Origin: Humisphaera borealis
Lineage (GTDB): Bacteria; Planctomycetota; Phycisphaerae; Tepidisphaerales; Tepidisphaeraceae
Direction: 5' to 3'
Length of the DNA: 64,000 bases
Assembly (NCBI RefSeq): GCF_015169395.1
Contig: NZ_CP063458.1
Location: 1,736,001 to 1,800,000 of the forward strand
A program made the position numbers and the translations under genes. Positions within the stretch are counted from its first letter, which is position 1. The number at the start of each line of letters is the position of its first letter. Shown one piece after another: positions 7,619 to 16,181 of the stretch. A model generated the notes under the pieces. The model saw only the letters and a list, made by a program, of their open reading frames with translations. It made no database searches and had not been told where the DNA came from.

Positions 7619-7708
7619 GAACACCGAACATCAAACACGGAACACTGAACGCCGAAGTGGCACACACAACTTCGATGTTCAGCGTTCGGGGTTTGATGTT
7701 CGGTGTTC
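7619..7708. repeat. Long inverted repeat built of GAACNNN heptamers
   Basis: Arms 7619-7658 and 7669-7708 are 40 bases each and pair at 35 of 40 positions across a 10-base loop. Each arm has a clear seven-base period: GAACACC, GAACATC, AAACACG, GAACACT, GAACGCC, GAAGT. Transcribed, it would form one very long hairpin just upstream of the FGGY kinase start at 7741. Confidence 0.9.
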
Positions 7709-7740
7709 GCATTGAGTGCCTCATCTCTCATCTTTACGCC

Positions 7741-9042
7741 ATGAATCTTCTCGGCCTCGACATCGGCTCTTCCTCGGTCATCGCCGGCGTACTACGCGGG
7801 ACGACCATCGCCCGGGAATCGCAGCGCATCTTCTTCAAAACGCGTCACGACGGTGCGAAGGTCGAGACAGACGCCGAGGTTGTGCTGCGGGCGGTGCGCG
7901 ATGCGATCGCGACGCTGGGACCGGCCGCGAGGAAAGTTGATGCGATCGCGATCGCCGCGATGGCACCGTCGTGGGTGGCGATGGACGGCAAGGGCAAGGC
8001 GCTCACGCCGATGGTCACCCATCAGGACCGCCGCAGTGTCGAGATCGCGCTCGAGATCGAACGCGAGATCGGCAAAGAGCGGCACCTGGCGATCGTCGGC
8101 TGCCGGCCCTTCCCCGGCGGGATTAGCTCCACCACCTGGGCATGGTATCGCCGTCACGAGCCCGACCGGCTCAAGAAGGCCGACCTTGTCGGGCACGTCA
8201 ACACGTTCCTTCATCGACAAATGACCGGCGCGAGGGTGACCGACCCGTCCAATGCGTCGTTCATGGGCGTCTACAACACGCTGGCCCTCGACGGCTGGAA
8301 CGACGAACTTCTGGAAGTTGTTGGCGGCAGCCGGGCGTTGATGCCCGATGTGATCGACGCTGACAGGATCGCCGGCAGGATCACCGAAGCCGCCGCAAGT
8401 GATTTCGGCTTGACCCAGGGCACGCCGATGATGACCGGCCTGGTCGACGGATCGGCCGGCGTGCTGCTGGCCGGCGCGAAGGTCGGACAGCTCTTCAACG
8501 TGTGCGGATCGACCGACGTCCTGGCGCTCTGCACCACAACGCCCAAGCCACACGAGAAGCTTTTGACCCGCGCCCTGGGTGTCGGCCGTAAGTGGTTGGC
8601 CGTCGGCACGCTCGCGGCAGCGGGATCGGCAATCTACTGGGCGAAAAACAACCTGTTCGCCGACATGCCGATTGAGGAGTTCCGCAAGCAGCTCGTCCGC
8701 CTGAGTCGACTCGGTCTCAAGGCGTCGGGCTCCGTGCGGTTCGAACCCTACATGGCCGGTGAGCGGACGAGCATCGAGCAGCGCACCGGCGCGTTCACCG
8801 GCCTCACGCTCGCCAGCACGCGAGAGCAGATGCTCTCTGCAATCCTTGAAGCACTGGCCAAGGCCAGCGCCGACCGGCTGCCGCTGCTGAAGGCGACGGG
8901 GACAAAGCTGCTGAAACAGGTAGTGGTGTCGGGTGGTGCCGCGGATCGCCTCGACAAACTGATGCACCGCGACTGGCCGGGGGTGTGGATGTATCGCGCG
9001 GTGACGGAAGCGACGCTGCGTGGGCTGGGAACGCTGGTGTAG
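7741..9042 (+). CDS. FGGY-family carbohydrate kinase
   Basis: The 433-residue protein begins MNLLGLDIGSSSVIAGVLRG, the phosphate-1 loop of the FGGY sugar-kinase fold. Further family features are AMAPSWVAMDGKG, MVTHQDRRSVE, the MTGLVDGSAGVLLAGAKVGQ segment and the FNVCGSTDVLALC phosphate-2 region. The C-terminal KQVVVSGGAADRLDKLMHRDW matches the adenosine site. It phosphorylates a sugar or polyol with ATP; xylulose or gluconate would fit the neighbouring pentose phosphate gene gnd, but the sequence alone does not settle the substrate. The ATG at 7741 was chosen because upstream in-frame codons lie in the heptamer inverted repeat. A GCGCC/GGCGC hairpin follows the stop at about 9043. Confidence 0.85.
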   Translation: MNLLGLDIGSSSVIAGVLRGTTIARESQRIFFKTRHDGAKVETDAEVVLRAVRDAIATLGPAARKVDAIAIAAMAPSWVAMDGKGKALTPMVTHQDRRSVEIALEIEREIGKERHLAIVGCRPFPGGISSTTWAWYRRHEPDRLKKADLVGHVNTFLHRQMTGARVTDPSNASFMGVYNTLALDGWNDELLEVVGGSRALMPDVIDADRIAGRITEAAASDFGLTQGTPMMTGLVDGSAGVLLAGAKVGQLFNVCGSTDVLALCTTTPKPHEKLLTRALGVGRKWLAVGTLAAAGSAIYWAKNNLFADMPIEEFRKQLVRLSRLGLKASGSVRFEPYMAGERTSIEQRTGAFTGLTLASTREQMLSAILEALAKASADRLPLLKATGTKLLKQVVVSGGAADRLDKLMHRDWPGVWMYRAVTEATLRGLGTLV

Positions 9043-9324: not shown

Positions 9325-10203
9325 TCACATCAGCGACTTGAGCATCGGCTTGATCGCCTCCCACATCGCCGGATCGCGCGACGCGAAGAGGATATTGGTC
9401 TTAAGCCAGTCGACCGGATTGCCGATGTCATGCCGCTTTGCCTTAAGCACCACTCCATGAATCGGCTCGCGCTTCAGCAAAAGTTGAAGCGCATCGGTCA
9501 GTTGGATTTCGCCGCCCTTGCCAGGCTTCGTCTCTTCGAGGCACTCGAAGATGGTTGGCGTCAGCAGATATCGAGCGGCGATGGCGAGGCGGCTCGGGGC
9601 CGTCTCGACGCTGGGCTTCTCGACAAGTTGTTCGATACGGATCGTACCGGCGTCGAGCATCTGCCCGCCGACGATGCCGTATCGGCTCACCTTCTCCGTC
9701 GGGACTTCCTCCAACGCGATGACCGAAGTGCCGTATCGTTCGTACGCCTCGACCAGCGCCTTGGCGGGTAAATCGTTCGCCGCCGCGTCGGCGGGAGCGA
9801 GACTGAAAATAGTGTCCCCGAGCATGCAGATGAACGGCTCGTTGCCGACATGCCACTTGGCCTGGTAGACGGCATCTCCCAGGCCCTTCATCTCAGGCTG
9901 CCGAACTGCGTGCATCTTGACCTTCGACGCCAGCTCCTTGATCGAAGCAATCAGTGCCTCTTTCTTGCCCGCGACCAGGCGGTCCTCCAACTCGGCCATC
10001 CGGTCGAAGTGGTCTTCAACAGCTTTCTTGTCGCGCGAGACGACCAGCAGCACGTCGCCAATGCCCGCGTCCGCGGCTTCCTCGACGACGTACTGAATCG
10101 TCGGCCGATCGAGAATCGGCAGAAGCTCCTTGGGTACCGCCTTGGCAGCGGGCAACATCCGGGTCCCAAATCCAGCGGCAGGAATGACAGCTTTTTTAAT
10201 CAT
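9325..10203 (-). CDS. galU: UTP--glucose-1-phosphate uridylyltransferase (GalU type)
   Basis: The 292-residue nucleotidyltransferase makes UDP-glucose from glucose 1-phosphate and UTP. The N-terminus MIKKAVIPAAGFGTRMLPA is the nucleotide-binding signature, followed by KAVPKELLPILDRPTIQYVVEEA with the conserved lysine. Also present are GLGDAVYQAKWHVGNEPFICMLGDTIF, the VEKPSVETAPSRLAIAARYLL segment and GKGGEIQLTDALQLLL, all characteristic of GalU. The start at 10203 begins the conserved fold exactly, although a palindromic repeat ends one base upstream of the ATG; its GGCGGA may serve as ribosome site. The gene lies downstream of a glucuronokinase-like GHMP kinase on the same strand, so a wider sugar-1-phosphate specificity is possible. 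Confidence 0.94.
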   Translation of the reverse strand: MIKKAVIPAAGFGTRMLPAAKAVPKELLPILDRPTIQYVVEEAADAGIGDVLLVVSRDKKAVEDHFDRMAELEDRLVAGKKEALIASIKELASKVKMHAVRQPEMKGLGDAVYQAKWHVGNEPFICMLGDTIFSLAPADAAANDLPAKALVEAYERYGTSVIALEEVPTEKVSRYGIVGGQMLDAGTIRIEQLVEKPSVETAPSRLAIAARYLLTPTIFECLEETKPGKGGEIQLTDALQLLLKREPIHGVVLKAKRHDIGNPVDWLKTNILFASRDPAMWEAIKPMLKSLM

Positions 10204-10204
10204 G

Positions 10205-10226
10205 TAGGGTCCGCCTTGGCGGACGC
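10205..10226 (+). repeat. Palindromic repeat family A, copy 2 (abuts the galU start codon)
   Basis: Same sequence as the copy after gnd except one loop base: TAGG, GTCCGCC, TT, GGCGGAC, GC. It ends one base before the galU ATG and is inverted relative to the copy at 10287-10308. Confidence 0.85.
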
Positions 10227-10286
10227 GAAGGGCGTCACCCATCAAGGCGTCTGAAGGTTTAACGGGTCGAGCAAATGCAACGCGTC

Positions 10287-10308
10287 GCGTCCGCCACGGC
10301 GGCCCCTA
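10287..10308 (-). repeat. Palindromic repeat family A, copy 3 (inverted)
   Basis: Minus-strand reading TAGGG, GCCGCC, GT, GGCGGAC, GC; one stem base differs from the other two copies. It lies two bases past the stop of the GHMP kinase, so copies 2 and 3 together fill nearly the whole gap between that gene and galU. Confidence 0.8.
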
Positions 10309-10310
10309 CG

Positions 10311-11318
10311 TCACACCTGGTCTTCGAAGATGATCGGCCGAATGACCGTGCAGCGGATGCTGGCCATGGCGTCTACAAGTTGCTGGTACTGCTTGCCGTC
10401 CTTGTAGAGGCCGCAGATCGCGCCGCCACTTCCAGTGAACTTTGCACTCGCACCCGTGCTGCGGGCCACGTCGATCATGCGCTGGTTCTCGGGGGCGATC
10501 GCCATGAACGTTCGACGCAGGTCGAAGTTTTCATCCATGACCCGGCTGAGTGTCGGCCAGTCGCCGGACATCAGCGCGTCGCGGCCGCGGTCGGTGAGTT
10601 CGCGGTACTTGATCATCGCATTGACCACGGTCGGGTCGCCGCGTTCATAGAGCTGTCGAAGGTTGCGGTGAGGGACGTCGCTCAGCTCGGCACGCTCGGG
10701 GTCGTAAGCCACGTAAAGCGGCGGCATGACGTTGGGCTTCAGCTCCTCGTAGATGCCGTAGCCGTTGCGTTCCATGTGTGACTTTTCGAAGTCCATGTAC
10801 ACGATGCCTTCGTACGTCTGACTGACGCGGTCCTGAAGGCCGGCGTTGATATCGAGCTCGTCACGTTCCACGCTGAGCACCAGCGATGGCATGATGTGCT
10901 TGGGAAGCTGCACACCATAAAAAGTCATCATCGCGCGGAACATCGCGGTGACGATGGCGCTACTGCCCGACATGCCGACCAGGCGTGGGATGTTGGTGGT
11001 AAAGCTGACCGTGAACGACCGGTCGGGCAGTTCAATACCCTGCTTGCGGTAGTGGTCGTGGAACTTACGGATCGCGGCCTTGATGAGCCGCATGCCGCCG
11101 TAGTAACCGTGCAGCTTCACGTCGCGCAGAAACTCGTGAACGCTGTCGAACCGGGCGAGGTCGCCATGGCTCGGCATGATCTCGAAGTGCGGGCTCTCCC
11201 AAAGCTTGATGGTCGTGTGGAAGTTCCGGATGACGAATGAGATCGTCTTGCCGAAGTAGCCGTCGGACGGATTTCCGACCAGACCGGCGCGCGCATACGC
11301 GGTGGAAGTGATGATCAT
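10311..11318 (-). CDS. GHMP kinase, glucuronokinase-like
   Basis: The 335-residue protein has the GHMP kinase layout: N-terminal AYARAGLVGNPSDGYFGKTISF (substrate loop), the ATP loop NIPRLVGMSGSSAIVTA and the C-terminal KFTGSGGAICGLY glycine motif. From memory the order and wording of several blocks (HGYYGGMRL, TNIPRLVGMSGSSAIV, AGLQDRVSQTYEGIVYMDF, NFDLRR, GASAKFTGSGGA) closely follow plant glucuronokinase, which makes glucuronate 1-phosphate from glucuronate and ATP. With galU directly downstream, a salvage route to a UDP-sugar is a reasonable inference. The start at 11318 (MIITSTAYARAG) was preferred over upstream in-frame GTG codons. Other GHMP substrates such as heptose or arabinose remain possible. 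Confidence 0.85.
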   Translation of the reverse strand: MIITSTAYARAGLVGNPSDGYFGKTISFVIRNFHTTIKLWESPHFEIMPSHGDLARFDSVHEFLRDVKLHGYYGGMRLIKAAIRKFHDHYRKQGIELPDRSFTVSFTTNIPRLVGMSGSSAIVTAMFRAMMTFYGVQLPKHIMPSLVLSVERDELDINAGLQDRVSQTYEGIVYMDFEKSHMERNGYGIYEELKPNVMPPLYVAYDPERAELSDVPHRNLRQLYERGDPTVVNAMIKYRELTDRGRDALMSGDWPTLSRVMDENFDLRRTFMAIAPENQRMIDVARSTGASAKFTGSGGAICGLYKDGKQYQQLVDAMASIRCTVIRPIIFEDQV

Positions 11319-11471
11319 TCTGAGTCGCTGATAAGTGGGTGTCGAGCAGGCGGGTCCAACGCCGCTACAACAGGGTAAAATCGCAAAAGTCCGGCAACGG
11401 CCGGGCGTGCCGTCCAGAGTCTGGCCGCCCAAAGTCTGACTTTTCAGGTACGGCGACGCCAGACGAGGAGG

Positions 11472-11876
11472 TCAGTGAACGAGCGGTTCTGCGAGGTCGG
11501 CAGGTACGGCCGCTCCGTCACCCAGCATGCCGGCGATCTCCGCGAACTTGCGAACCGGGTCAATGATGGGGCCGGCTGCGAGTGGGCCAACAGGGACGGC
11601 GGCGGCACCGCCTTCCAGAAATCGCCGAACCGTGTATTCGAGCATCTCGTCGCCCAGACTAAGTCCGAGCTGATCAAGGAACAGTGATTGAACGTCCGAA
11701 GGCGTCACGTCGGGATCCTCCCGGGAAACGGTCCAAGGCCGACAACGAAGCCGGACATCCTCCGGCAGCGCGCGGCCCCATGAGTAGTTGAACTTACCGG
11801 CGGCTTCATCGCAAGTAAGAACGCGGGTTCTGCGATGGTTATCGGGCACCGCGGGTGGCGCGGTAACGCTGATCAC
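11472..11876 (-). CDS. Possible small hypothetical protein (134 aa)
   Basis: A minus-strand frame opens with GTG at 11876. The product reads MISVTAPPAVPDNHRR, then GKFNYSWGRALPEDVRLR and DQLGLSLGDEMLEYTVRRFLEGG. The amino-acid composition looks protein-like and many third positions are G or C, but there is no ribosome site and no family was recognised. It lies behind and on the same strand as the GHMP kinase's promoter region, 154 bases upstream of that start. Confidence 0.4.
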   Translation of the reverse strand: MISVTAPPAVPDNHRRTRVLTCDEAAGKFNYSWGRALPEDVRLRCRPWTVSREDPDVTPSDVQSLFLDQLGLSLGDEMLEYTVRRFLEGGAAAVPVGPLAAGPIIDPVRKFAEIAGMLGDGAAVPADLAEPLVH

Positions 11877-14414: not shown

Positions 14415-16181
14415 TCAGTTGACCTCAAGGTAGTTGAGTTTCGTCAACCCGCCCGCAACCGACCCGATACCGAGCGTAAGTCTTCCGTCAGACACGGTGA
14501 CGGTAATCGACCTGGTGCTAAAAACATTGGCGGCCTGCGACTGCTGGTTGAACAGCTGCTGACCTTCGATCCAGACATTGTTCTTGCTCGTCGCTCCTGC
14601 GTCGCCGACCGAAACGTTGACGACGTAGGTTCCATTGGCAACGGCCAGCTCCCATTTGCCACCTTGCTTGACGGCCAGGGCAGTGTCCAGTCGCTGGTCG
14701 GCATTGATGTTGCGATCGAAGACGACGTCGGCGTGGTCAACGCTCCAGCCGTAGGTCTTTCCGTTTCGGGCACCGTACGTCGAACCGGCATCGACGAGAT
14801 ACCCGGCCACCGTGGTTGCCGACGACGGTTGAAAGTTCACTTTCGTCCCGCCAGATGTTGGAGGGGGTGGTGAAATAGGCGGTGGCGAAGTCGGTGGCGG
14901 TGAGGTCGGCGGTGGTGAGGTCGGTGATGTCACCTCGACGTAGTCGATCTTGGTCGTTCCACCGGCTGCCGAGCCGATGCCGAGCGTCAGTCGCCCGTCG
15001 GTCACGTTGACGGTGATGGACTTGCTCGCAAACGCGTTCGCCGCCAATTGCACGTAGTTGAACAGCGCCTGCCCTTCGACATAAACGTTGTTCTTGCTGC
15101 TCGCCCCCGAGTCGCCGACGCCAACCTTCACGACGTACGTGCCATTGGCAACGGCCATCTCCCACTTACCTGCGGCCTTCACGCCAACATTGGTATCCAC
15201 GAGTTGATCGCCGTTGAGATTGCGATCGACGACGACATCGCTGTGGCTGGTCGACCAGCCGTAGGTCTGACCATTGCGGGAAGCATAGGTCGCGCCAGAA
15301 TCGACCAGATAGCCGGCGACTACCGGTGCGGTCGCCGGCTGGAAGTTGACCTTCGTACCCCCGGACGCCGGCGGCGGTGGCGATGTCGGTGGCGGTGATG
15401 TCGGTGGCGGTGATGTCGGGGGTGGTGATGTCGGCGGAGACGTCACCTCGACGTAATCAAGCTTGGTGGTTCCCGTCGCGGCCGAACCGATCCCCAGCGT
15501 TAGTCGGCCGTCCGATACGTTCACCGTCATCGACTTACTTGCAAAGGCGTTTGCCGCCAAGGATTGATAGGCGAATAGCGCCTGTCCTTCGACATACACA
15601 TTGTTGTTGCTGCTGGCGCCCGAATCGCCAATGCCGACCTTCACGACGTACGTCCCATTGGGCACCGCCAGTTCCCATTTTCCTCCGGCAAGGACAGCCA
15701 CGTTGGTATCGAGGAGCTGATTCGAGTTCTTGTTGCGGTCGACGATCACACTGGAGTGATTCGTTGTCCAGCCATACGTCTGCCCGTTGCGAGTTCCGTA
15801 GATGGCTCCCGAGTCGACCAGGTAACCGGAAACCGTCGGGGCGGTCGCGGGTTGGAAGTTGAACTTCGTGGTCGTAGCGACAGCAACGGCGTTGTTGGTC
15901 CACGACTCAAGAACATCCCCGCCTAGCACCCTTCCGTAGCCATCGACCGGGCCGCCGCTCGCAACGAGCCGCAGACTGTAGTTGCCTGCAGGAGTGGTGA
16001 TACCCCGGAGATTCGTGAGCGTGAACGTCGTCTGATCGGAAGTCGACAGTCGATTCGCTCCGGTGAGAAGGTTCTTCCCGCCGTTGCGGGTAAGCTGCAA
16101 ATCGCCGATGGCAAACCCGTAGGTCTTGCCGCTGAATGCGATGGTCACACTATCGACCGGCGTCGCGCGCGGGTCGGGCAC
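14415..16181 (-). CDS. C-terminal piece of a frameshifted secreted giant: Ig-like domain plus three INFQP carbohydrate-binding-like modules
   Basis: This 588-residue frame is the natural continuation of the gene that starts at 18586. Read past its first GTG, the frame is open back to about 16320 and gives PNVTSFTDPAGVAGGSYRLRAY, the missing end of the fibronectin III domain of the upstream piece. It then has an Ig-like domain (SVTIAFSGKTYGFAIGDLQLTRNG) and three copies of a roughly 140-residue module (FNFQPATAPTVSGYLVDSG, YGWTTNHSSVIVDRN, GKWELAVPNGTYVVKVGIGDSG, DGRLTLGIGSAATGTTKLDYVEV) joined by TSPPP linkers. The modules look like malectin-type or other carbohydrate-binding beta-sandwiches. 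There is no ribosome site, so it is probably not translated alone. The same module occurs in the two giants at 28-36 kb. Confidence 0.75.
   Translation of the reverse strand: MPDPRATPVDSVTIAFSGKTYGFAIGDLQLTRNGGKNLLTGANRLSTSDQTTFTLTNLRGITTPAGNYSLRLVASGGPVDGYGRVLGGDVLESWTNNAVAVATTTKFNFQPATAPTVSGYLVDSGAIYGTRNGQTYGWTTNHSSVIVDRNKNSNQLLDTNVAVLAGGKWELAVPNGTYVVKVGIGDSGASSNNNVYVEGQALFAYQSLAANAFASKSMTVNVSDGRLTLGIGSAATGTTKLDYVEVTSPPTSPPPTSPPPTSPPPTSPPPPASGGTKVNFQPATAPVVAGYLVDSGATYASRNGQTYGWSTSHSDVVVDRNLNGDQLVDTNVGVKAAGKWEMAVANGTYVVKVGVGDSGASSKNNVYVEGQALFNYVQLAANAFASKSITVNVTDGRLTLGIGSAAGGTTKIDYVEVTSPTSPPPTSPPPTSPPPISPPPPTSGGTKVNFQPSSATTVAGYLVDAGSTYGARNGKTYGWSVDHADVVFDRNINADQRLDTALAVKQGGKWELAVANGTYVVNVSVGDAGATSKNNVWIEGQQLFNQQSQAANVFSTRSITVTVSDGRLTLGIGSVAGGLTKLNYLEVN

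Follow-up and report, generated by a model that had tools for sequence, protein, structure and literature searches.

A putative two-gene cassette for glucuronate salvage in Planctomycetota, pairing a glucuronokinase-type GHMP kinase with a GalU-type uridylyltransferase

The salvage of free glucuronate through a 1-kinase is reported in plants and lower animals, and in plants the second step is catalysed by an enzyme of the PF01704 superfamily. In the soil planctomycete Humisphaera borealis, a gene for a GHMP-family kinase is followed by galU, and a sequence-only reading of this locus proposed a bacterial route from free glucuronate, or a related sugar, to its UDP form. The locus thus raises the question of whether the kinase and GalU act together in salvage and, if so, on which sugar. 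Here we report a computational analysis of the locus, which lies in a 64,000-nucleotide stretch of the genome (hereafter referred to as the window), and of its relatives in other genomes.

The zebrafish glucuronokinase is homologous to the Arabidopsis enzyme and, of nine sugars offered, used glucuronate alone. It is joined in one protein to a nucleotidyltransferase with homologues in bacteria, and the same study, published in 2014, encountered bacterial and archaeal pyrophosphorylases only in stand-alone form (PMC3938481). The K16190 orthologue of glucuronokinase (GLCAK) is reported from bacterial data in KEGG-based community surveys (PMC8571626, PMC10687571); homology-based annotation of bacterial members therefore already exists, and our finding is to that extent modest in surprise. 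No report of an assayed bacterial glucuronokinase was found in the literature searched, most subscription journals lying outside it. The features of the locus, with the evidence for each, are as follows.

Positions 9325..10203, minus strand: galU-type UTP:sugar-1-phosphate uridylyltransferase, 292 aa (TIGR01099, solved matches, conserved residues)
Positions 10204..10310, minus strand: gap of 107 bp between the kinase stop codon and the galU ATG (sequence reading and scan)
Positions 10311..11318, minus strand: GHMP-family sugar-1-kinase of the NPSD/QDR (glucuronokinase) type, 335 aa (motifs, Pfam, AlphaFold2 model, family tree)

The kinase and its family

The kinase open reading frame spans positions 10311-11432 on the minus strand, from a TTG at 11432, and the likely start is Met39, encoded by the ATG at 11318, the coordinate at which the interval given in the sequence-only reading ends. 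The three motifs that this reading had quoted for the kinase are all found, and read AYARAGLVGNPSDGYFG, TNIPRLVGMSGSSAIV and AGLQDRVSQTYEGIVYMDF. The Pfam models GHMP_kinases_N (4e-10) and GHMP_kinases_C (4.5e-7) both match above their cut-offs, and the catalytic D163 and the G118-S119 (ATP) loop are invariant in the kinase family. An AlphaFold2 model (pLDDT 89.8) adopts the GHMP fold, and its structural matches are galactokinases, the heptokinase WcbL, GalNAc kinase and fucokinase (Z 28-33), the best being galactokinases (galactokinase Z 32) and the heptokinase, tied in Z. The predicted fold supports the assignment to the small-molecule GHMP kinases and leaves the substrate unfixed.

Directly 5′ of the kinase ATG, a weak sigma-70-like match (9/12) lies at 11317..11345 on the minus strand; it was discounted as promoter evidence, as two such matches were found against a mean of 0.9 (s.d. 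1.1) in shuffled sequences. Further upstream, and also on the minus strand, a 134-aa open reading frame (window positions 11472-11876) has no Pfam match, and its sole relative among the fetched loci occurs in a genome of the same genus (61% identity over 79 residues).

By sequence, the nearest solved relatives, at about 20% identity and with E values no better than 7e-12, are kinases for heptose (HddA) and mevalonate, and a search of solved structures with the kinase sequence returned no glucuronokinase. These neighbours could indicate that the protein is HddA, or another known GHMP kinase, misread as a glucuronokinase, but the profile scores make this very improbable, as they fall far below the cut-offs for HddA (NF049969, 44.9 bits versus 600), mevalonate kinase (TIGR00549, 47.8 bits versus 163) and galactokinase GalK (NF003006, 23.2 bits versus 443), and each of these identities was rejected. 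The kinase shares the GHMP fold and about 20% identity with HddA and WcbL (3k85, Z 28.0; 4usk, Z 31.7), whereas the first motif is GNPSD here and GGGTD there, and the catalytic Asp is followed by Arg here (QDR) and by Gln there (QDQ). Moreover, the only other GHMP kinase found in the genome with the kinase as query (C1:2.785 Mb, 22% identical) is HddA-like and sits at C1:2.78 Mb in its own heptose cluster (G000:C1:2780000-2792000), together with genes for GmhA-like and GmhB-like proteins and a MurU/HddC-like nucleotidyltransferase, so that the heptose role is already filled in this genome.

We compared the kinase with Arabidopsis GlcAK1, using a provisional reference sequence rather than a database copy. 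The two share 39% identity and 61% similarity over 333 residues, compared with about 20% identity for the nearest solved kinases. In a control of independence, which asked whether the provisional sequence might be an edited copy of the window kinase, 24 distant homologues were examined at the 202 positions at which the two differ. The residue of the provisional sequence occurred in these homologues at 140 positions, compared with 85 +/- 7 (maximum 107, 500 trials) for BLOSUM-random substitutions, and the provisional sequence is nearer to several distant family members (43-44%) than to the window kinase. It is not merely an edited copy of the latter.

The provisional GlcAK1 sequence carries the same residue at 59 of the 68 columns that are nearly invariant among 37 bacterial members, including Arg10, Asn16-Pro-Ser-Asp19, Asp163-Arg164, Asn264, Arg268 and Arg286; four of the nine mismatched columns are gap columns at the alignment edge. 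In a maximum-likelihood tree, it falls, on a long branch and at a position that is not settled, inside the 41-row bacterial NPSD family, and the family as a whole is split from the HddA-type kinases with support of 100/99, which further argues against an HddA identity. The plant enzyme (EC 2.7.1.43) and the window kinase appear to belong to the same kinase family and have the NPSD, TNIPR..SGSSAI and AGLQDRV motifs in common. These sequence comparisons, made with the provisional reference, give good support for placing the kinase among the GHMP kinases of the glucuronokinase type.

The substrate of the kinase is probably glucuronate, given that the relatives studied in plants and fish are reported to act on this sugar, the fish enzyme with strict specificity. 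A cassette for another hexose, uronate or pentose (galacturonate, glucose, galactose, arabinose or xylose), with the kinase acting at C1 and GalU making the matching UDP-sugar, appears unlikely. In its favour, few residues suffice to switch the substrate of a GHMP sugar kinase, the top structural matches are tied between galactokinases and the heptokinase, the identity to the provisional plant sequence is only 39% and the GalU models best suit glucose-1-phosphate, whereas the reported specificities and the agreement of the provisional sequence at most of the invariant bacterial columns speak for glucuronate.

Linkage of the kinase and galU across genomes

The window genome is a single contig of 7.19 Mb, and the relatives compared with it are Phycisphaerae metagenome assemblies. 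Of 37 main-family loci, 22 have the kinase and GalU genes side by side on the same strand, and at four more the two are no further than 2.4 kb apart (26/37). In the family of the window (Tepidisphaeraceae-like), GalU directly follows the kinase in nine genomes, lies 0.5-2.4 kb away in four and is unlinked in four. In other Planctomycetota families, the pair is adjacent at 12 of 19 main-family loci, with the kinase first at five and galU first at seven, and in seven genomes the two genes are unlinked; adjacent pairs were found in eight families besides that of the window. Linked pairs are always on the same strand, in both gene orders, and their start and stop codons overlap in several cases. 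No other conserved neighbour recurs at these loci.

The pair also occurs outside the phylum, on a plasmid of Rufibacter tibetensis (Bacteroidota), where the kinase is 44% and the GalU 48% identical to the window proteins and the GalU scores 352.5 bits with TIGR01099. Among phage and plasmid records, Rufibacter was the only close relative, and no relatives were found in viral contigs; the spread outside Planctomycetota is under-sampled in this analysis. The plasmid (NZ_CP012644.1:122312-143313) was typed as mobilizable, and the cassette may therefore move between phyla.

The two genes also occur together irrespective of position. The window's family was represented by 26 genomes; of these, 17 of the 18 that carry the kinase and none of the eight that lack it have the linked GalU type, and the sole kinase-positive genome without this GalU is 79% complete. 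The hypergeometric probability of this distribution, worked by hand, is 6e-6, which is only indicative because the genomes are related. Across 343 sampled Planctomycetota, a close GalU was found in 9/24 kinase-positive genomes versus 7/319 others (odds ratio 27, p 7e-8), at a threshold that misses several adjacent, more diverged GalUs.

Many of these loci come from one family and are not independent, as would suit an adjacency due to chance or shared ancestry and devoid of functional meaning. That explanation is nonetheless hardly credible, in view of the recurrence of the pair in many genomes, far more often than expected by chance, its presence in both orders, in eight other families and on a Bacteroidota plasmid, the overlapping start and stop codons, and the retention of both genes where they are unlinked. 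Adjacency in both orders, occurrence in a second phylum and co-occurrence strongly support a functional coupling of the kinase and GalU.

A diverged NPSD kinase subgroup (33-34% identical; L125:7295-9063 and L126:2658-4360) adjoins a nucleotidyltransferase of about 248 aa rather than GalU, with a Gfo/Idh/MocA oxidoreductase nearby. The different partner may point to a further substrate within the kinase family.

The linked GalU and the second step

Downstream of the kinase, the next gene on this strand is galU, as the sequence-only reading had named it, and its product scores 335.0 bits with TIGR01099 (cut-off 326.8). The open reading frame (9325-10245) runs up to a TTG at 10245, and translation probably begins at the ATG at 10203 (MIKKAVIPAAG...); in the 107-bp gap that separates this ATG from the kinase, no terminator-like hairpin was called on the minus strand. 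The best solved matches of the product are all GalU enzymes, with E values down to 1.7e-70, and its Pfam matches are to NTP_transferase-type domains only, PF01704, the mark of a UDP-sugar pyrophosphorylase (USP), not being among them. The proposal of the sequence-only reading is partly supported, in the glucuronokinase-type membership of the kinase and in its functional link to GalU, whereas the substrates of both enzymes are putative; the partner is a GalU and not a plant-type USP.

The arrangement resembles two known systems. As with plant GlcAK and USP, a uridylyltransferase would act functionally after the kinase; the plant second enzyme is a PF01704-type USP, whereas that of the window is of the 292-aa GalU type, and here the genes are adjacent in a bacterium whose genome lacks MIOX. 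In the zebrafish/Xenopus fusion DrGKUP, a kinase of the same family is linked directly to a small nucleotidyltransferase of bacterial type; DrGKUP is a single fusion, with extremely low pyrophosphorylase activity in the fish protein, whereas the bacterial kinase and GalU are encoded by two separate genes (PMC3938481).

To compare sugar contacts, we used the UDP-glucose contact positions of YngB (PMC7961091). Like bacterial GalU enzymes, the galU product passes TIGR01099 and conserves all of the UMP, Mg and diphosphate residues of YngB. Three of the four glucose-contacting positions are kept or conservatively changed, and the fourth, Asp134 in YngB, is Thr. This position is Thr, Ser or rarely Ala in 25/25 kinase-linked GalUs, and the pair 205-206 is mostly Ala-Ala, such that most kinase-linked relatives read Ala-Ala-Arg-Tyr at 205-208 instead of the bulky-Gly-Arg-Tyr of solved GalUs. 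A site that has lost an acidic residue next to the sugar would be in keeping with a carboxylate substrate, but this is only a hint, because GalUs from some genomes without a detected kinase have the same change, and as a signature of uronate use the change was kept merely as suggestive. The E. coli GalU presumably also lacks the Asp at this position, and a second GalU-like paralogue, found in the same genomes, has His there.

Canonical GalU prefers glucose-1-phosphate, and the fact that the partner passes the UDP-glucose pyrophosphorylase model TIGR01099 counts against the salvage reading. It is conceivable that the kinase makes glucuronate-1-phosphate, that GalU supplies UDP-glucose only and that a PF01704 enzyme carries out the second step, as that superfamily does in plants. 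A PF01704 protein is indeed present in 29/30 genomes, including all kinase-positive genomes tested; the window genome encodes its own at C1:6.07 Mb, away from the kinase and galU. PF01704 proteins, however, occur independently of the kinase, as does the GalU-like paralogue, which in this genome is 36% identical to the linked GalU and, at 150 bits versus the TIGR01099 cut-off of 326.8, leaves the linked protein as the only one of the two to pass the model. The linked GalU is thus an extra that travels with the kinase. A division of labour with PF01704 would ignore this tracking and leave the repeated adjacency in both orders without explanation, and we consider it improbable.

A putative route from glucuronate to UDP-glucuronate

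We favour the reading in which the kinase and GalU form a salvage cassette that converts glucuronate to glucuronate-1-phosphate and then to UDP-glucuronate, with a probability of roughly 0.5. With ATP as donor, the kinase would phosphorylate free D-glucuronate at its anomeric carbon, and the linked GalU-type enzyme would combine the resulting glucuronate-1-phosphate with UTP to yield UDP-glucuronate and pyrophosphate, the latter step being the less certain of the two. The cell would thereby reuse glucuronate freed from polysaccharides, bypassing UDP-glucose dehydrogenase. Candidates for that dehydrogenase are present in 18/18 genomes tested, and the route would therefore be a redundant salvage path and not the sole source of UDP-glucuronate.

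The source and alternative fate of glucuronate bear on this route. MIOX is absent from 17/18 genomes tested, and its coupling to the cassette was accordingly rejected as a general feature; glucuronate would thus come from outside or from polysaccharide turnover rather than from inositol. Both the redundancy with the dehydrogenase and the rarity of MIOX count against the salvage reading. In its favour, none of the 26 Tepidisphaeraceae-like genomes (G000-G025) encodes the uronate isomerase UxaC, although two other Planctomycetota families tested do, so that in the window's family glucuronate is not drawn off by the isomerase route of breakdown. The single genome with MIOX (G020) may have a fuller glucuronate route, and at its locus (L039:8068-12211) a GH116-type glycosidase gene lies between the kinase and galU.

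Two other genes of the window were noted. An FGGY carbohydrate kinase (window positions 7657-9042) lies beside a 6-phosphogluconate dehydrogenase and is nearest to xylulokinase, at 164 bits versus a cut-off of 380. A 588-aa open reading frame (window positions 14415-16181) apparently encodes a secreted or surface-type protein, whose three similar domains are connected by proline-rich TSPPP linkers.

UDP-glucuronate for hyaluronan cascades is now made with Arabidopsis enzymes (PMC11868170), and the cassette, if it acts as proposed, would offer a ready two-enzyme route to this compound. Our wider proposal, more tentative than the cassette itself, is that the pair represents an uncharacterised bacterial two-gene pathway from glucuronate to UDP-glucuronate, avoiding UDP-glucose dehydrogenase, in which a branch of GalU may have been repurposed for glucuronate-1-phosphate, and that the plant and animal glucuronokinases may derive from, or share ancestry with, the bacterial family. 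A conserved cassette of this kind would provide a testable prokaryotic counterpart of glucuronate salvage, from which the eukaryotic kinase may have originated.
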